A stretch of 31,951 nt of DNA from a virus. The stretch is taken from positions 1 through 31,951 of the IMG/VR virus record IMGVR_UViG_3300028104_000058; one strand, given 5' to 3'. Made by a program: the position numbers and the translations under genes. Under the pieces are notes generated by a model that worked only from the letters and a program-made list of their open reading frames with translations, searched no databases and was not told the DNA's origin. This document shows, in pieces, positions 1-10,017 of this stretch (positions are counted from its first letter, which is position 1; each line of letters begins with the position of its first letter).

Positions 1-153
1 GCCAAGGCGGTGGCCGAGGCATTGACCAAGGCCCAGGGCGAGCGTGACGCCGCCGTTGGCCTTGGCCAGCTCGGCCTCCAGCTCGGCGGCCTTGGCCACG
101 GCGGCGTCACGCTCGCCCTGGGCCTTGGTCAATGCCTCGGCCACCGCCTTGGC
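1..153. repeat. Perfect 56-bp terminal inverted repeat (foldback)
   Basis: Bases 1-56 are the exact reverse complement of 98-153, separated by a 41-base spacer (57-97). The right arm reads sensibly in the leftward gene as an Ala/Lys/Glu-rich coiled coil; the left arm is the same DNA read backwards and gives an implausible Gly/Leu continuation. The spacer holds the direct repeat GGCCTTGGCC at 58-67 and 88-97, whose GGCC ends are self-complementary. I infer a foldback made during amplification or assembly at a contig end rather than a biological element. Confidence 0.85.
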
Positions 154-471
154 CACCGGGTCGTCGCCAGCGCCGGCGTTGCCGCCGAGGGTGGCGATCA
201 GGGCGTCGACCTGGGACTTGGCGGCGTCGGGCATGGTGTCCCGCGCCTTGGTCAGGGACTCGATCAGTTCCTTGGACACGGGCTGCTCCTCTTCCTCCGC
301 CTCGGCGGCTTTGATCAACTGCTCGATCTGCTCGTCGCTCAGGTCGTCGAGCGGGTCGGCTCCGGCGGCGGACTTGAGGACCATCCACCCCTGCGCCAGA
401 TGGGCGGGGGCGTCGACGCCGGACACCTCGTCGACCCTGAGGCCCTTCATCCGTCTCGCTCGTAGTCCCAC
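1..471 (-). CDS. Head/scaffold-like protein, partial (3' end lost)
   Basis: Leftward gene running off the left edge. The N-terminus has the pattern VDEVSGVDAPAHLAQGWMVL, resembling the opening of phage prohead-protease and scaffold proteins (a 'VD-V--VD-PA' motif followed by a hydrophobic 'lvlKsA' strand). An acidic stretch and a long Ala/Lys/Glu coiled coil follow, which fits a scaffolding protein. The GTG at 471 is preferred because CTCCT (AGGAG on the coding strand, 477-481) sits 5 nt upstream; an ATG at 450 is the alternative. The reliable sequence ends near base 97, because the last part lies in the terminal foldback. A position after portal, MuF and protease fits a structural role. Function is inferred. 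Confidence 0.6.
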   Translation of the reverse strand, partial: MGLRARRMKGLRVDEVSGVDAPAHLAQGWMVLKSAAGADPLDDLSDEQIEQLIKAAEAEEEEQPVSKELIESLTKARDTMPDAAKSQVDALIATLGGNAGAGDDPVAKAVAEALTKAQGERDAAVAKAAELEAELAKANGGVTLALGLGQCLGHRLG

Positions 472-2192: not shown

Positions 2193-2461
2193 GAGGGTAG
2201 GCCCAGGACGACGCCGTGCTCGGTCAGCCATGCACCAACGGCTTCGGCGTCATCGGCGTGGAACACCGCCGTGTAGGCACCGCCGCCGCTGCTGATCCCC
2301 TGAATGGGGAAGGTCCCGGTCTCCATCTGCCATGCGAGGAAGTCGCCCACCTCTCCGTTGTCCCGCGTCCTCCGCATCGACCGGCGCTCGGCTTCCGTGC
2401 GCTCGGCCTCGAAGTGGACCAGCACGCCCGACGTCACATGCCCGATGATCCGTGCTCTCAC
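2189..2461 (-). CDS. Hypothetical protein, 90 aa
   Basis: Starts with GTG overlapping the stop of the capsid-protease gene (GTGA). It has an N-terminal strand with HVTSGVLVHFEA, a basic helix, a Gly/Ser turn (ISSGGGAY) and a C-terminal acidic helix. The spacing suggests a small alpha/beta fold. Tight coupling to the protease gene suggests a head-assembly role, but this is context only. Confidence 0.65.
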   Translation of the reverse strand: MRARIIGHVTSGVLVHFEAERTEAERRSMRRTRDNGEVGDFLAWQMETGTFPIQGISSGGGAYTAVFHADDAEAVGAWLTEHGVVLGLPS

Positions 2462-4353
2462 GCCATCTCCACGGCCACGCGGGTGGCGACGCCGCCCAAG
2501 GAATACCCATTGCGAGCGCCACTGAGGATCGACGGCCAAGCGTCCTCGTTCCACACGACGCCGAGGAACACCGTCCCGGGGGCGAACGCCTTCTGCACGG
2601 TGGTGCCGTCGGCCTTGGTCATGGGCACGGTGACCTCGTACGGCCACGACACGATCTCCACCCACTCGCCGATGGCGGTCCCGTCACGGTGCTGGTCCCG
2701 GATGGTGCGGTCCCCCTTGCGGACGTGGTCCCACACCGCCTGCTGCAGATCCTCGGCGGTGGCGAAGTCGCCGTGTGCGTCGAGGTGGGCGGCGGAGGGT
2801 GACTCGGGCGAGGCCGGGTACAGCGGCGCCATCGTGTAGCGCTTGGCATCGAGGGACTTGATGGCCGGGCCGGCGACAGCCTTCATGACGGGAGGCGGTG
2901 CCTGCGGCAGACCGTCGAGGGTGTACACCGTGCGGTCGTCGCCCCACGCCAACACGATCGAGCCGAAGTGCAGCGGCGTCGGCTCGATGCCCTCGGCCAG
3001 GATGGCGGCGGCGGCCTCCTCGTCCTCGGGCTTCACGTAGGCCAGCGTGGCGTGTGCGGTGAAGATGTGGTTGGACGCCACCTCGACGCCGGCGGCCGCC
3101 AGCGTGGCGACCAGGCGCTGGCGGAACTCGGTCAGCATCGGTGCGTCGATGAGGGCGACCAACGGCCACCCGTCGTCGTCGGTGCCATGGAACCGGGCCA
3201 GGCCGCCCACCGTGCCGTTCACGGGGCCGTTGGCGGCGGCAAACGCGACCAGCGCCGCCTCGATCTTGTCCCGGTCCAGGCGCACCACGGCATCCGATCC
3301 GAGGAACCCGAGCGTGACGTGCAGGTCCTCGGGCAGTTCGCCCCCGTCGAGGGCCATGGCCCGGGCGGCGTCGGGCGGCGGGTACAGCGCCACCATGGCG
3401 GAGGTCTTCATGCCAAGCGCCTTGGACGCCAACGCCACCTCGGCGCCGGTCACATCGCCCACCGTGATCGTCGGCGTGAAGCTCGTCGCACCGGCCGGCG
3501 GTGTGATGTCCACGCTGACGTGCTTCCACTCATCGGGGCCAGCCTCGAATTCGATGTTCGGGAAGATCTGCGGCGAGACCTTCCGCCCCTTCAGCACCTC
3601 GACCAGGCGGCGCAGCAGCGCCTTGCGGGCGGGCGAGCGGGCCAGGCCGGCGGAGCGCAACAGGTAGCTGGTGCCCACGTCGTCAGCGGGGCGGATGCGG
3701 CGGGCGGGGAAGCCGGGCGGAGTCTCCACGCCGCCGGTCACGAACACCAGGTCGGCGCCCTTGGCCCACTCGGGGATGGCCTTGGCCGCCGGCATCCACA
3801 GCACCCGCCGGCCCTCGACCTTGACTTCGTAGCCCCAGGCCCCGCTGATCATGCGGGGGTCGATAGACAGGCCGCCCTCGTCGTAGTGGCCGCCGTCGGT
3901 GCCGGCCGCAGCCGTGGTCAGGTGGGTGGCGCCGTCGGGTACGTCGGTGCCGTCGAGGGCGACCACCTTGTCACCGTAGGTGATGAGCAGGCCGGGCCCG
4001 TCGACGACGTCGAGGCGCAGGCCGGCGAGCTTGACCACCACCTGGTTGCCCTCGTCGTCGGTGGTGACGATGGCGGCGGGCACCTCGTCGTAGGACTTGC
4101 GAGCCTTGCCACCGTGGGCGTTGGGCCCGGCGTACTCGCCGGTGGCGTCCTTGTGGCGAAGCTGGCAGAACCCTTTCGCCTGGTCGGGGCGCATGTGCTT
4201 CGCCGCCACCTTCACGCACTGATCGAAGTCGCCCGGCTTGCCCCACTGGATGCGGCCGCCGGCGCCACGGTTGTACCAGCGGATCAGGTGACGGGCACGG
4301 ACTTCGCCGGTGGGGTTGGCCTTGTCGGATGCGGACTTGTCGACGGCGGTCAT
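2458..4353 (-). CDS. XkdF-like prohead protease fused to a 2H phosphoesterase domain
   Basis: A 631-residue multidomain head protein. Residues about 20-85 hold a module common at the N-terminus of phage head proteins (WGKPGDFDQCV, then GFCQLRHKDATG). Residues about 315-480 look like a 2H phosphoesterase (LigT/2'-5' RNA ligase superfamily): the paired motifs are HVT at 345-347 (LHVTLGFLG) and HAT at 434-436 (FTAHATLAYV), 89 residues apart as expected. Residues about 500-631 match the XkdF-type phage serine protease: AHLDAHGDFATAEDLQ, WVEIVSWPYEV, then the late NGYSLGG with a candidate nucleophile Ser618. XkdF-like enzymes process capsid and scaffold precursors. The gene sits between MuF and the scaffold-like gene, as expected for a head protease. 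GGAGGA precedes the ATG by about 12 nt, within a TGATG overlap. Residues 90-310 are unassigned. The fusion is unusual and the phosphoesterase substrate is unknown. Confidence 0.75.
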   Translation of the reverse strand: MTAVDKSASDKANPTGEVRARHLIRWYNRGAGGRIQWGKPGDFDQCVKVAAKHMRPDQAKGFCQLRHKDATGEYAGPNAHGGKARKSYDEVPAAIVTTDDEGNQVVVKLAGLRLDVVDGPGLLITYGDKVVALDGTDVPDGATHLTTAAAGTDGGHYDEGGLSIDPRMISGAWGYEVKVEGRRVLWMPAAKAIPEWAKGADLVFVTGGVETPPGFPARRIRPADDVGTSYLLRSAGLARSPARKALLRRLVEVLKGRKVSPQIFPNIEFEAGPDEWKHVSVDITPPAGATSFTPTITVGDVTGAEVALASKALGMKTSAMVALYPPPDAARAMALDGGELPEDLHVTLGFLGSDAVVRLDRDKIEAALVAFAAANGPVNGTVGGLARFHGTDDDGWPLVALIDAPMLTEFRQRLVATLAAAGVEVASNHIFTAHATLAYVKPEDEEAAAAILAEGIEPTPLHFGSIVLAWGDDRTVYTLDGLPQAPPPVMKAVAGPAIKSLDAKRYTMAPLYPASPESPSAAHLDAHGDFATAEDLQQAVWDHVRKGDRTIRDQHRDGTAIGEWVEIVSWPYEVTVPMTKADGTTVQKAFAPGTVFLGVVWNEDAWPSILSGARNGYSLGGVATRVAVEMA

Positions 4354-5146: not shown

Positions 5147-5343
5147 GCCGGCGGAGCCTCCTCGGCGCGGCAGTGCTGCCACGTTCGGTAGACGATGACC
5201 GGCCACAGGGTGACGGAGGGCACCAGCAGGATCGGGCCGGTGCTGTCCTCCCTCGGCCACTTGCGGTCAGACCAGCGAGCCACGGCCCAGAGGGCGACGC
5301 CGATCAGGTAGTAGGCGAGGGCGATGAGGGCGAAGGCAGTCAT
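5143..5343 (-). CDS. Two-segment membrane protein, 66 aa
   Basis: Starts MTAFALIALAYYLIGVALW (transmembrane), then a charged turn (RWSDRKWPREDSTG), a second moderately hydrophobic segment (PILLVPSVTLWPVIVY) and a charged tail. AAGGAG sits 6 nt before the ATG, and the start overlaps the MuF stop as ATGA. A hairpin membrane protein of this size next to head genes could be a holin; this is not proven. Confidence 0.65.
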   Translation of the reverse strand: MTAFALIALAYYLIGVALWAVARWSDRKWPREDSTGPILLVPSVTLWPVIVYRTWQHCRAEEAPPA

Positions 5344-6251
5344 GCGGCGCTCCTTCTCGGGGTGGCGGATTTCACGATGAGTCGGCACCGGCAGTTCGGA
5401 TGCGCCGGCGGGTGCAGCACCGGGCCGGCGAGCGTCTGGAACGGCTCGGTCAGGCCCTCGACTTCGACACCGGACATGGGCCGGCAGATGAGGCAGATGC
5501 GGCCATCCTCGGCGCTGCTGCGCTTGAACTCGGGCGCTGTGACCCACACTCGCACGACGCCGTCGGGGTACACACCGGCGGCTACAGCCGCCCGGTAGCC
5601 CTCCATCGCCCCCATGTTGGACGCACGCAGCAGTTCCGTGCGGGCGATGGTGCGGGCCTGGTGGGTGAGCAGCCTTGATCGGTACTGCCCCACCAGCCGG
5701 TCGATGCGGGCCGCCGACATCGGCGTCTTCGCCGACTCCAGCGCCCGCCGGCGGTTGGCCACGGCGTTGGCCCAGCGGGGATGCAGGCCGATCACGTCTC
5801 GCACATCGGCGGTGACCTGGTCGACGCTGCGGCCCTCACGCAGCCCACGGACGATGATCGCCCGCACGGCGTCTCGGGCGGTGGCGGTGATGCCGTCCAC
5901 CAGTTCGCTGGCGTGGGCCTCGGCAACGGCCAGGGCCCGGGCGGGCACCAGGTCGAAGGAGACGCCGATGTCGGCTCTGGCCCGGTCCATGCCCCGCAAC
6001 GCCACGTCGGCCAGCGCCGGGCGCACGACACGGAGCAGCCGCCGGCGGATGCCGGACCAGTCGATGCCGGAGGACGGGTCGTCGTCTCCCCGGCTCAACA
6101 GCTCGGCCAGCGTGGAGCCCAGCAGCAGGAACGGAGCGGCCAGGGCGGCGGCCAGCGAGCGGGCCAGGGACTCGTCGCCGGCCGCCTTGGCGATGGCGTC
6201 GGGTGTGGGCTTCGGGGCGGGACGGTAGGCGCGGGTGGCGACGATGGTCAT
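5340..6251 (-). CDS. MuF-like phage head morphogenesis protein, 303 aa
   Basis: The C-terminal third carries the MuF (Mu F / SPP1 gp7) signature: ARTELLRASNMG, then the Cys pair ICLICRPMSG and the closing HPPAHPNCRCRL. In this family the Cys/His cluster is the conserved core. MuF proteins associate with the portal and enter the capsid, aiding assembly or early ejection. The N-terminal two thirds is Ala/Arg-rich and helical. ATG at 6251 makes an ATGA overlap with the upstream gene, so a longer reading to 6641 is rejected. Its place after the portal gene fits the classic portal-MuF order, here with two small genes inserted between. No toxin domain is seen at either end. Confidence 0.85.
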   Translation of the reverse strand: MTIVATRAYRPAPKPTPDAIAKAAGDESLARSLAAALAAPFLLLGSTLAELLSRGDDDPSSGIDWSGIRRRLLRVVRPALADVALRGMDRARADIGVSFDLVPARALAVAEAHASELVDGITATARDAVRAIIVRGLREGRSVDQVTADVRDVIGLHPRWANAVANRRRALESAKTPMSAARIDRLVGQYRSRLLTHQARTIARTELLRASNMGAMEGYRAAVAAGVYPDGVVRVWVTAPEFKRSSAEDGRICLICRPMSGVEVEGLTEPFQTLAGPVLHPPAHPNCRCRLIVKSATPRRSAA

Positions 6252-6451
6252 CGGCTGTCCCGTCGTGACCGCCTCCACCATGGCAACTCCAACCGGCGAA
6301 CTCGCTCGGCCAGCCGCGAAATCTCCCTGGCGTCGACAACGCTCCGACGATGCAGCACGCCGATCCAGAATGCGGCCTGCTCCAGCGTCTCGATCTCGAC
6401 CCGAGGACCGGACTCCGGCGGACCGTCGTTGCGGCTTGACACGACGCTCAT
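6248..6451 (-). CDS. Hypothetical protein, 67 aa
   Basis: Central helix ETLEQAAFWIGVLHRRSVVD and a basic tail (RLELPWWRRSRRDSR) suggest a nucleic-acid or membrane-surface interaction. ATGA overlaps on both sides. It lies between a Cys-rich small protein and MuF, inside the portal-MuF interval. No family recognised. Confidence 0.6.
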   Translation of the reverse strand: MSVVSSRNDGPPESGPRVEIETLEQAAFWIGVLHRRSVVDAREISRLAERVRRLELPWWRRSRRDSR

Positions 6452-6723
6452 GCCGCCACCGTCGCCCTACACGACGACTTGCCGCAGCTACCGGTGCGAC
6501 CGGCTCGCACGTCGGCCGCACGCACGAATACCATGCCGTCCTCGCACCAGCAGGTGACGAGCAGCCGGTCGCCTTCGTGATGGCCCTCCGCTCCCCGCTG
6601 GCGTTCGTAGGCCATCTTCGCCGCCGTGCAATCTGGTCCACGGCAGCCGAGATTCTGGTACCCGTTGTGTGTCCCGTGCCGAGGATCGCCGTCGCCGGGC
6701 GAGATGCGCTTCGCCTTCGTCAC
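6448..6723 (-). CDS. Small Cys-rich protein with GT-x-NGY-x-GCRG motif, 91 aa
   Basis: Contains HGTHNGYQNLGCRGPDCTAA, a motif recurring in actinophage proteins as 'GT-NGY-N-GCRC-DC', with Cys and His placed for metal binding; a second cluster is VTCWCEDG. A related arrangement is seen in some HNH-like or zinc-binding phage proteins, but no His-Asn-His core is visible. Start is the GTG of a GTGA overlap with the portal stop. Role unknown. Confidence 0.65.
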   Translation of the reverse strand: MTKAKRISPGDGDPRHGTHNGYQNLGCRGPDCTAAKMAYERQRGAEGHHEGDRLLVTCWCEDGMVFVRAADVRAGRTGSCGKSSCRATVAA

Positions 6724-8114
6724 GCCGCCATCTCCTTCGGCACCACCAAGCCGCTCTGCGCTTGGGTCCACTCGTCCTCGTCGATCGGGGGCGCCCCGAC
6801 CTGGTCCCGGGCCCAGTTCTCCGTCTCGGCGTTGTTGGTGATGGCACCCGTGGACACCATCTGGGACCAGGCGGCGGCGAAGCGCTCGACGTCGACCTGC
6901 TTCACCTTGCCGGGCCGCAGCCTCGGGGTGAGCTTGGCCGACACCCCGTTGGCCCGCATGAGGCGCGGCGTCAGGTGGGCGTCGAAGATGTTGGCGACGC
7001 CGTCGGTCCAGGTGGCGAGGGCCTTCTGGAACAGCTCCATCTTGGGCTCGGCCACGGCCCGGGAGCCGTTGGGCTCATGTCCCAGGAACAGCCAGTCGGC
7101 GAGCATGCACGAGGCCATCTCGACCCGCTTGCGCATGATCACGGCGTCGATGTCGAACTGGCGCCGGCCGCCGGAGGTCATCAGCTTGAGCGGGAACTTC
7201 TCGGCCTTGGACTCCTCGTACAGGTCGGAGGGCCACAGCACCGATGCGCTCTGGTTCTGGCGAATGTTGGACAGGATGCGGCGCATGACGGCCACGGTCT
7301 GCTTCTCCGCCGGCGAGGCGCCCTCTGCCAGGTACGACGAGGGTGCGCCGCCCACGGGCAGGCCGGCCAGGTCCCGCTCGATGCCGATGCCCTCGAACAC
7401 CTCGATCTGGCGCAGGAAGTGCCACGGTCGCCACGCCGACCGGAGCACCGACGTGCCCTCGGGCGAGTTCTTCTTGGTCGACGTGCGGAACAGCGCCGAG
7501 TGCTCGATGGGCACCATGACCGCCGGGCCGCCCAGGATCTGCTGCCACATGCCCCGCACGTTGCCCCGGCTGTCGAGCTCCCATCGCAGCTTCGAGTCCT
7601 GGGAGCGGGGCGACATCACCCGCCAGCCGATCAGGCCGTCGTCGTAGTCGCTCGACGCCGGGGCGTCAGGCTTGTCGGGACGGTAGGGCTGCTCGCCGTC
7701 GCGGCGCTTGAGGACCACGTTGGAATACGACCAGCCGAAGGGCACCATCGTGAAGAACGTGCTCACCGTGTCGGGCCAGCTCATCGACATGTCGTGGATG
7801 GCCGTGTTGCACAGCTCGGCCCAGCGCTCGCCCTCCTTGCCGCTGTCGGGCGGCGGCTCGAAGTCCCACGGCACCGCTCGCACCATGAGGTCGATGGCCA
7901 GCAGGCCGGCGCCGATGGTTGGATCCTCCTCAGACATTTCCTTGAACACGGCTGTGCCCCGGTCGCCGGCGAGGGCCTGGCGCTGCTCCTCGTACAGCTG
8001 GCCGCCCTGGTGCTGGAGGCCCGTCGTCCCGATCTCGGTGAACGCCAGGCCGCCGGCGGAGCGCGCCTTCTCGATCGTCTCCTCGCCGAGGTCGGCGTAC
8101 CCGTTGGCGCTCAC
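6720..8114 (-). CDS. Phage portal protein (Mu gp29/DUF935-like), 464 aa
   Basis: Size and content fit a portal: an N-terminal helical part with FKEMSEEDPTIGAGLLAI, a wing region with TFFTMVPFGWSYSNVV, then the conserved segment SPEGTSVLRSAWRPWHFLRQ and GIGIERDLAGLPVG. In Mu gp29-like portals the 'P-G-S-LR-AW' and 'E-Gip' elements are the recognisable core. Portals form the dodecameric ring at the capsid vertex through which DNA is packaged and ejected. It follows the terminase large subunit after one small gene and is followed by MuF, the standard order. Start is the GTG of a GTGA overlap. Confidence 0.8.
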   Translation of the reverse strand: MSANGYADLGEETIEKARSAGGLAFTEIGTTGLQHQGGQLYEEQRQALAGDRGTAVFKEMSEEDPTIGAGLLAIDLMVRAVPWDFEPPPDSGKEGERWAELCNTAIHDMSMSWPDTVSTFFTMVPFGWSYSNVVLKRRDGEQPYRPDKPDAPASSDYDDGLIGWRVMSPRSQDSKLRWELDSRGNVRGMWQQILGGPAVMVPIEHSALFRTSTKKNSPEGTSVLRSAWRPWHFLRQIEVFEGIGIERDLAGLPVGGAPSSYLAEGASPAEKQTVAVMRRILSNIRQNQSASVLWPSDLYEESKAEKFPLKLMTSGGRRQFDIDAVIMRKRVEMASCMLADWLFLGHEPNGSRAVAEPKMELFQKALATWTDGVANIFDAHLTPRLMRANGVSAKLTPRLRPGKVKQVDVERFAAAWSQMVSTGAITNNAETENWARDQVGAPPIDEDEWTQAQSGLVVPKEMAA

Positions 8115-8422
8115 GGCTGCGATGGTACGGCGGGATGCACCCGATCAGGCGGTACCTCGGGGTTCTCACGGTGGCATGCGTGGCAGTAGCCGGGATGCGG
8201 CTCGCTGTGGTTGAGCACGGACTGGATCAGCCGGAACACGTTGAGCGACCGTCGATGCGCCACGTCGTCGCCGGTGACAGTCTCGCCGTTGCTGTTGTAC
8301 CGGAAGCCGTACCGACTGGCAGCGGGCAGCGTCGCTGCCTGGTTCCAAATCTTCATCTCGCCAATCTTCTGCGGCCGGCGCTCATCGCCTCCGGGCAACA
8401 GTTCGACGGTGACCCGGATCAC
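8111..8422 (-). CDS. Conserved phage protein downstream of terminase, 103 aa
   Basis: Opens VIRVTVELLPGGDERRPQKI and continues with GEMKIWNQAATLP, a beta-rich pattern I recognise from small proteins encoded between terminase and portal in many actinophages. The C-terminal part has a helix and a CHACH motif (YCHACHRENPE). The GTG start overlaps the terminase stop as GTGA. Function is not known; location suggests a packaging or head-completion accessory. Confidence 0.65.
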   Translation of the reverse strand: MIRVTVELLPGGDERRPQKIGEMKIWNQAATLPAASRYGFRYNSNGETVTGDDVAHRRSLNVFRLIQSVLNHSEPHPGYCHACHRENPEVPPDRVHPAVPSQP

Positions 8423-10017
8423 CGCCCCCACCCGCTGTCGTAGCCGTAGCCGCCGTCGTCCCAGCCGTCGACGTCGGCCAGGCCGGCTCCGGCCGCCCAT
8501 GCGTTCTCCTGGGTGTCTTCCATCGGCGGCGCCGGAACGAAGGGCACACCCCGGCCCATCAGCAGGTAGCGCAGGGCGTCCAGGGCGTGGTCATCGCAGG
8601 TGGTGTCGATGTCCTCGGGCTTGTTCTTGTCCCGGGGAGCGTTGGGCAGCGTGCGGATCAGGTTGGCGCAGGAGGAGAACACGTGCAGGCGGGGGCACAT
8701 CTCCCAGCCCTTGGCCCGGTGGAAGTCGCACGCCGGTAGGTCGGTGAGGTACTCCAGCACCCGTGACCAGCCGTTCACCCGGTCGTTGACCGCCTTGCGC
8801 AAGACACAGCCCTCATCGGCGTAGATGGCGGCGTTGGAGTTGGCCTCGCCCGTCTTGGCCCACATCGACGGGTCGGCGTGGCGTGCGGCGGGAGTGATCC
8901 CGGCGCCCGCCTCGGTGGCCAGGATGCGCCGGGCCTGGTCGGTCTGGCCCACGCCGGTGTCGTAGAGCTCGTGGGTGATCCAGCACCGGCCGTCGTTGTC
9001 GAAGGCGCCGACCAGCACGGCCCACGGTGCGGCGTAGCCGTAGTCGATGCCCTCCTCCCGGTCCCACTCGTCCGGCAGCGGCATCGGCTCAACGACGTGG
9101 CGCTCACGGGACCAGGCGGCGAAGAACTGGCCGGCGAAAACGGACCAGTCGCCCTCCTTCATGGCCTTGCGCCGGGCGGGGTCGGGGATGGCGTCGAGGG
9201 TGCGGTGGTAGGTCTGGTCCCGGTCCAGGTAGGGGTTGTCCGACAGCCTCGAGCGGATGAACCGGCGGGTGCGGTCGTGCTCATCGGTGACGACCTTGGC
9301 CCCATCGTCGGTGGCGTCGATGTAGGCCGCCTTCGTCTCGCCGTGGCCGGGCCCGCCCGGGTTGGCCGTGCAGCGGGTGCCCAGCACGGGGATGTCGGGG
9401 TCGCTGGAACGCAGCCGTTCCTGGAGCACGGGCACCACTCCCGGCGGCATCAGCGTGCGCTCGTCGACGAGCAGGAGCTGGTAGTCGCCGCCCTGGCGGC
9501 GCACGGCGTCGTCGATCGACTCGGCGTAGCGGAAGCGGAACTTGGAGACCTTGCCCGCCCGCATCGGGAATGTGAGCTCCTTCTCGGTCTTGTTCCAGCT
9601 GGCGCCCAGCGCCATGGCGTAGGCCAGCTTCTGCAGCTCCTTGAGCAGCGACTCGGCCAGCTCGTCATAGGTCCGGCGGTAGGCGCCCACCCAGATGCCC
9701 GGGTAGCGCACGCAGGCCCGGATGCCCTCCATGAGAAGCGATTTCGTCTTCCCGCCGCCGGCCTGGCCGCCGAACAGCACGTCGTCCTCGGTGGCGGCGT
9801 GGAACTGCTCCTGGGGGCAGCGACCGCACGGCTCGGGCAGGTCGACGCCCGACCTCTTGGCATCCACCGGCGTCTCGAACCCAGCCTCCTTGGCGGCAGC
9901 GATCCGGGGCAGGCAGTTCGGCTCGTAGCCCAACACCTCGAAGGCGTCGACCGCCGAGTCGGCGGGGTCGGCCCACGCATCGGCCACCCACTGCCACGGG
10001 TTGGCGGCGAGGGTCAC
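8419..10017 (-). CDS. terL: Terminase large subunit (packaging ATPase-nuclease), 532 aa
   Basis: Two-domain DNA-packaging motor. ATPase: a PCGRCPQEQF segment before Walker A (GGQAGGGKT, 83-91), Walker B LLLVDE (181-186) with catalytic Glu186, and a coupling-motif region TRCTANPGGPGHG (214-226). RNase H-like nuclease: GIDYG (Asp325), HADPSMW (Asp382) and CDDHALDALRY (Asp475/476 and Asp480) supply acidic metal ligands. The length of about 530 aa is normal. It hydrolyses ATP at the portal vertex to pump DNA and cuts concatemers. Start is a GTG overlapping the previous stop as GTGA. Two small genes and the PP-loop ATPase separate it from the terminase-small-like gene. Confidence 0.93.
   Translation of the reverse strand: MTLAANPWQWVADAWADPADSAVDAFEVLGYEPNCLPRIAAAKEAGFETPVDAKRSGVDLPEPCGRCPQEQFHAATEDDVLFGGQAGGGKTKSLLMEGIRACVRYPGIWVGAYRRTYDELAESLLKELQKLAYAMALGASWNKTEKELTFPMRAGKVSKFRFRYAESIDDAVRRQGGDYQLLLVDERTLMPPGVVPVLQERLRSSDPDIPVLGTRCTANPGGPGHGETKAAYIDATDDGAKVVTDEHDRTRRFIRSRLSDNPYLDRDQTYHRTLDAIPDPARRKAMKEGDWSVFAGQFFAAWSRERHVVEPMPLPDEWDREEGIDYGYAAPWAVLVGAFDNDGRCWITHELYDTGVGQTDQARRILATEAGAGITPAARHADPSMWAKTGEANSNAAIYADEGCVLRKAVNDRVNGWSRVLEYLTDLPACDFHRAKGWEMCPRLHVFSSCANLIRTLPNAPRDKNKPEDIDTTCDDHALDALRYLLMGRGVPFVPAPPMEDTQENAWAAGAGLADVDGWDDGGYGYDSGWGR

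Follow-up and report, generated by a model that had tools for sequence, protein, structure and literature searches.

Genomic context

The window is the whole stretch of DNA that was analysed, 31,951 nucleotides of an environmental-sample phage (IMG/VR record IMGVR_UViG_3300028104_000058, positions 1 to 31,951). Its head operon runs in the order terminase, portal, MuF, fusion gene and scaffold-like ORF:

8419..10017, minus strand, terminase large subunit (profile match)
6720..8114, minus strand, Mu-type portal protein (profile matches)
5340..6641, minus strand, MuF-like head morphogenesis protein (profile matches; homologous part, residues about 218-428)
2458..4353, minus strand, fusion gene of 631 amino acids without an internal stop (N-terminal module, middle module, 2H phosphoesterase and XkdF-type head protease)
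57..450, minus strand, N-terminal part of a scaffold-like protein, clipped by the contig end, with seven [VILFM]xK[AS] sites

The fusion gene thus lies between MuF and scaffold, the genomic place of the XkdF family, and the synteny of the related contig L021, in which phrog_13547 and the major head protein come after the fusion gene, agrees with this. As a multidomain chain with disparate enzymes among head genes, the product has the make-up of a polyvalent protein; more complex relatives were found in L021, L122 and L156. At the contig end, inside the scaffold ORF, positions 1-56 and 98-153 are perfect inverted copies of each other, 56 bases long and separated by a 41-base loop, which is probably an assembly artefact truncating the scaffold gene.

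Domain organization

The following domains and motifs were delimited within the fusion gene (all on the minus strand):

4117..4335, N-terminal module, residues 7-79 (phrog_6439, E 9e-13)
3679..4026, variable middle module, residues about 110-225 (weakly similar to a PqqB-like metallo-beta-lactamase fold)
2896..3420, 2H phosphoesterase domain, residues 312-486 (Pfam, alignments, AlphaFold, Foldseek)
3313..3321, first catalytic motif, H345-V-T347 (invariant in alignments A3, A6 and A7)
3046..3054, second catalytic motif, H434-A-T436 (His invariant, Thr over 90%)
2461..2847, XkdF-type serine head protease, residues 503-631 (PF14550, invariant residues)

An earlier note on this DNA had placed a 2H domain, recognized by HVT and HAT motifs 89 residues apart, upstream of an XkdF-like serine protease with a late GYSLGG motif. 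Both observations were borne out: H345 and H434 are separated by 89 residues, the Pfam matches place the 2H domain first and the protease at the C-terminus, and GYSLGG occupies residues 616-621, the gene being read from the minus strand. Residues 1-310, which the note had left undiscussed, hold two further modules.

2H phosphoesterase domain

The window protein matched the Pfam family 2_5_RNA_ligase2 over residues 342-473 (E 2.1e-7, exceeding the family cut-off) and also LigT_PEase (E 3.1e-5, likewise exceeding the cut-off). The checks that had been proposed for the fold and for conservation of the motif histidines were carried out, and both came out in favour of a 2H enzyme. Two alignments, one of 65 and the other of 62 viral 2H proteins, had invariant columns at the positions matching H345, T347, L348 and H434, and the position of T436 was more than 90% conserved; the start Met was an extra invariant column in one of the two. 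An AlphaFold model of residues 310-631, calculated from an 80-row alignment, had pLDDT values of about 93-98 in the 2H part and showed the bilobal 2H fold, and its best matches in the PDB by Foldseek were 2H enzymes. A chance occurrence of HxT motifs was ruled out by the profile, the model and the conservation. As judged from these residues and those of the protease, both enzymes of the window protein look active.

The closest fold was that of the Deinococcus CPDase (E 4.6e-8); Thermus and E. coli LigT, Usb1 and viral 2'-5' phosphodiesterases were also matched, and Acb1 ranked about 33rd (E 2.2e-4, TM about 0.6 by target). A sequence-profile search with the clade returned LigT-type (archaeal) proteins first and also CPDase, and Acb1 was not among the matches. 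The best relatives by both fold and profile are thus the LigT/ThpR RNA 2',3'-cyclic phosphodiesterases (5h7e, 1iuh, 5ldm), which, unlike the window fusion, are cellular, stand-alone enzymes. Acb1 (T4, FBB1; PMC9117128) has the same 2H fold with an HxT/HxT active site, but it stands alone and is the more distant fold match. Direct membership of the Acb1 family was rejected, as the Acb1 profile (PF23474) did not match the window protein at E values up to 1; weak Pfam Acb1 matches were obtained for a few members of the 2H clade. The fold check proposed in the earlier note thus came out in favour of a 2H enzyme, but with RNA cyclic phosphodiesterases, not Acb1, as the nearest relatives. Since the model is nearer to LigT/CPDase than to Acb1 and the Pfam Acb1 profile gave no match, an anti-CBASS activity is one of several possibilities and is not favoured.

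XkdF-type protease domain

Residues 524-626 matched Peptidase_S78_2/XkdF (PF14550) with an E value of 6.5e-7, exceeding the family cut-off, and the protease part of the AlphaFold model had pLDDT values of about 75-90. H555, E566 and S618 were invariant in 36 protease relatives; H555 and S618, the latter within GYSLGG, are likely to be the catalytic residues, and E566 is conserved with them. HK97 gp4 and other S78-type prohead proteases are likewise serine head proteases with a GxSxG-type motif, but the HK97 protease carries no enzyme cargo, unlike the window fusion.

N-terminal and middle modules

The N-terminal module is conserved in the relatives L019, L020 and L100, and its conserved residues C46, H53, C63 and H67 could bind metal. 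This phrog_6439 Cys/His module recurs in head-region proteins; in L003 (6001-6189) it appears by eye to lie next to a Nudix-like region.

The model of the middle module was poor (mean pLDDT 53), and Foldseek matches to this low-confidence model were mostly metallo-beta-lactamase folds, the best being PqqB (E 1.3e-3). The metal-binding HxHxDH motif is absent, so the module would be a degenerate metallo-beta-lactamase; given this and the weak resemblance, an Apyc1-like role is not claimed. Residues 85-310 gave no phage match by tblastn and no Pfam match. In L019, the 2H domain of which is 81% identical, a zinc-ribbon-like stretch replaces the middle module, and the region is therefore regarded as exchangeable.

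Candidate cleavage motif

A motif of the form hydrophobic-x-K-[A/S], written [VILFM]xK[AS], was first spotted by eye at the domain junctions and was afterwards tested in scaffolds, so that the scaffold result is the more independent of the two. In 45 of 55 non-redundant proteins it lay no more than about 20 residues ahead of the protease, against 5.7 ± 2.3 in shuffles, and in 15 of 70 proteins ahead of the 2H domain, against 2.6 ± 1.6; related sequences share motifs by descent, so these shuffle values are not independent trials. The reversed motif was far weaker.

At 40 protease loci comprising 537 ORFs, the ORF most enriched in the motif was mostly a scaffold-like one of about 260 amino acids located downstream of the gene for the protease, which often came second itself; 37 ORFs exceeded z = 5 for the motif and none did so for its reverse. 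For the scaffold fragment in the window about 0.5 sites were expected, as against the seven present, and the window MuF protein and fusion protein contained three (p 0.005) and four (p 0.03), respectively. Control scaffolds from T7, P22 and one Gordonia phage were not significantly enriched in the motif; to our knowledge, the T7 and P22 scaffolds are not proteolysed. Applied to T4 gp22, which gp21 degrades, the same enrichment method recovered the LxE motif. The candidate motif resembles the site at which HK97 is cut, after Lys and before Ser at K103/S104 (PMC10275583).

Three sites are predicted at the domain boundaries of the window protein (all on the minus strand), a strict motif being present at only one of these junctions:

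3418..3423, predicted cleavage site ASK311|A312, directly before the 2H domain (relaxed motif)
2878..2889, predicted cleavage site VMK491|A492, between the 2H domain and the protease (strict motif)
2854..2865, predicted cleavage site AIK499|S500, at the start of the protease (relaxed motif)

Further copies of the motif lie within the protease itself (578-581 and 586-589). Its statistics are taken as support for, not proof of, cleavage. They predict self-cleavage that would free the 2H enzyme inside the head; together, the junction sites and the scaffold enrichment make likely the release by proteolysis that the earlier note had envisaged.

Related proteins in cultured phages and in the literature

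The earlier note knew of no described fusion of this kind, but the fusion is already present in sequence collections. PHROG 14859 is a 2H-XkdF fusion to which residues 316-630 align over profile positions 56-366 of 373 (E 8.5e-49), and tblastn located the fusion, at 30-34% identity, in Ottawa, Kharcho, Kovu, ValentiniPuff and the Laroyevirus phages. Laroyevirus gp18 (Arthrobacter phages Laroye, Salgado, Shrooms and Edmundo), Ottawa gp87, Kovu gp20 and Microbacterium phage ValentiniPuff gp7 share the 2H-then-XkdF arrangement and the genomic place of the window protein, with about 30-35% identity over residues 316-630; in the Laroyevirus type an LTKA-type motif lies between the two domains. The PHROG 14859 proteins of cultured phages comprise about 370-390 amino acids and, unlike the window protein, have neither the N-terminal nor the middle module. 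Gordonia and Mycobacterium phages have stand-alone 2H genes close to portal genes.

Public labels for the cultured-phage fusions vary between aldolase class I, RNA ligase and capsid maturation protease. In the Laroye genome paper gp18 was called an aldolase and gp17 was named as the protease (PMC5513430); by its PHROG matches, gp17 is a MuF-type protein. Identity as an RNA ligase or aldolase was rejected, as neither a ligase-catalytic nor an aldolase profile was found; the `RNA ligase' label goes back to the naming of the 2H family after 2'-5' RNA ligase. Laroyevirus gp18 (MF140427 / KU160654) is accordingly assigned as a head protease with a 2H domain, and its public annotations look wrong.

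The idea of a head-delivered anti-signal enzyme, put forward in the earlier note, is also in print for 2H domains joined to MuF or portal proteins. Iyer et al. (2017) describe such fusions, suggest that they act as RNases or break down immune nucleotides, and locate assemblin-like peptidases C-terminally in polyvalent proteins (PMC5512222); Iyer et al. (2022) again have such 2H domains packaged and then injected as a counter to nucleotide signalling, and describe Nudix domains fused to head serine peptidases (PMC9503650). As in the window, the 2H domain of these polyvalent proteins lies within a head protein. The available text of the two papers names MuF and portal as partners and does not name 2H-XkdF, which may appear in the figures.

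Survey of viral contigs

A scan with the two-domain alignment identified relatives in 463 viral contigs, in most cases through the protease part, and a scan with the 2H alignment yielded 170. By local searches, 50 of 76 2H proteins had a head protein in the same chain: 20 an XkdF protease, 21 a portal (ten with MuF too), one MuF alone, five an S78 protease (one with a capsid as well), two a Mu-type protease and one a further capsid. Pfam added L119 (XkdF) and L144 and L166 (portal), which raises the count of head-protein fusions to at least 53 of 76; this fraction is indicative, since a few of the proteins are near-duplicates and some were found through the protease. The catalytic residues are kept across this 2H clade. 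Portal, 2H and MuF form a single chain in L101 and L134. In L103 two separate, adjacent genes, situated between those for MuF and capsid, encode the 2H protein and a 137-amino-acid XkdF protease, so the two need not be fused. On a tree of the 2H domains the XkdF label needs seven changes, of which strongly supported branches force only one. A genome scan for prophage relatives gave one contig only, with the protease alone.

Many XkdF relatives have long variable regions, and a variety of other domains was seen in XkdF or 2H chains. Zeta-toxin kinase domains occur in L021 (6498-8957, together with 2H), L072 (6969-9233, at the C-terminus) and L136 (1587-6263). RelA/SpoT-like regions were matched weakly by Pfam in XkdF proteins of L037 (5818-7389) and L081 (5460-8378; E 0.01-0.03), and also in those of L035 and L080, in which ParB-like regions (DGHHRWAA) were seen by eye. 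Two very long proteins combine a histidine phosphatase, 2H and an XkdF protease (L122, 3355-6936), the second with an ADP-ribosyltransferase in addition (L156, 3760-7704). In L141 (5887-7389) a 2H domain of the same clade is joined to the Thoeris inhibitor Tad3 (strong match, E 2e-31); a search of the accessible literature did not find a paper linking Tad3 with Thoeris. The 2H domain lies at the N-terminus of the major capsid ORF in L160 (5842-8577) and L165 (5830-8625), with a protease-like region between the two in L160. A module ending in PSPGRVAWDAWGGDAGxxW, for which Pfam has no name, precedes XkdF in L051, L056, L058, L059, L069, L072, L076, L080 and L081.

Discussion

The window fusion is real and well formed and is mostly an instance of a published idea. 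Already known are the 2H-XkdF fusion, in sequence collections, and the head-delivered 2H domain, in print; new are XkdF as a platform, the inferred cleavage motif, the four-module form and the survey with its head-protein fusions.

On balance, and with considerable reserve, we favour a head-maturation polyprotein from which a 2H enzyme is freed in the head and delivered to the host. The C-terminal XkdF domain, encoded between MuF and scaffold, would be the prohead protease of the phage; packed in the prohead, it would cut the scaffold and itself after lysine at hydrophobic-x-K|[A/S], as the motif enrichment suggests. Self-cutting would release the 2H domain (about 312-491), with its catalytic residues intact, into the head interior, and by analogy with known ejected head proteins this may stay with the DNA and enter the next host cell, where it would cleave a 2'-5', 2',3'-cyclic or cyclic-oligonucleotide phosphate bond in immune nucleotides or RNA. 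In Salmonella phage SPN3US many head proteins are packaged and ejected and the prohead protease cuts several of them (PMC10052503); T4 Alt, an ejected head protein, is cited as a precedent in PMC5512222. The fusion of the same protease to other effector-like domains (zeta toxin, weakly matched RelA/SpoT-like regions, ADP-ribosyltransferase plus histidine phosphatase) counts for the proposal, and it counts against it that release inside the head does not prove ejection.

The substrate could be RNA rather than an immune signal: it is quite conceivable, at somewhat less than an even chance, that the packaged enzyme is a Usb1-like RNase or serves to trim or heal ends bearing a 2',3'-cyclic phosphate. 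The fold ranking, led by CPDase and LigT and followed by Usb1 well before Acb1, and the profile matches to LigT-type proteins and CPDase instead of Acb1 point this way, and RNase activity is one option favoured by Iyer et al. (2017) (PMC5512222). The clade, however, has no RNA-repair partner (RNA ligase or kinase) among its fused domains, and the physiological substrate of LigT itself is uncertain, so that proximity of fold does not fix that of the 2H domain. Degradation of immune nucleotides by a delivered enzyme with an Acb1-like function, as the earlier note had read the gene, is possible but rather unlikely; the Acb1 fold is shared, a few clade members match its profile weakly and one (L141) is fused to Tad3, while the window protein lacks that match and LigT-like folds are nearer.

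It is quite unlikely that the 2H domain is not delivered at all and either works in the producing cell late in infection or is a hitch-hiker of gene fusion. The separate neighbouring genes of L103 and the stand-alone 2H genes close to portal genes of Gordonia and Mycobacterium phages would suit such an account, as adjacency may simply lead to fusion, but the many head-protein partners, such as portal and MuF in L101 or the capsid in L160 and L165, are difficult to account for if the domain has no connection with the particle. That the domain is a degenerate remnant whose sole role in the protease is structural or scaffold-like is very improbable even with a probably degenerate middle module in the same protein, the catalytic His and Thr being among the very few invariant or near-invariant positions in more than 60 diverse proteins.

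Beyond the favoured delivery of the freed 2H enzyme, a broader and doubtful extension is that XkdF proteases form a general platform excising exchangeable effectors (2H, zeta kinase, RelA/SpoT-like, ADP-ribosyltransferase) at hydrophobic-x-K|[A/S] in the prohead, so that the particle would deliver ready-made enzymes erasing nucleotide immune signals at once on infection.

For the cultured Laroyevirus phages, the annotation of gp18 is corrected from `aldolase' or `RNA ligase' to a head protease with a 2H domain. With the inferred cleavage motif, and with relatives in culture (Laroyevirus, ValentiniPuff), the published proposal that 2H enzymes are delivered from the head becomes open to direct test. 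If the proposal is true, head maturation would be linked directly to early counter-defence, since the protease that the phage needs would also arm the particle.
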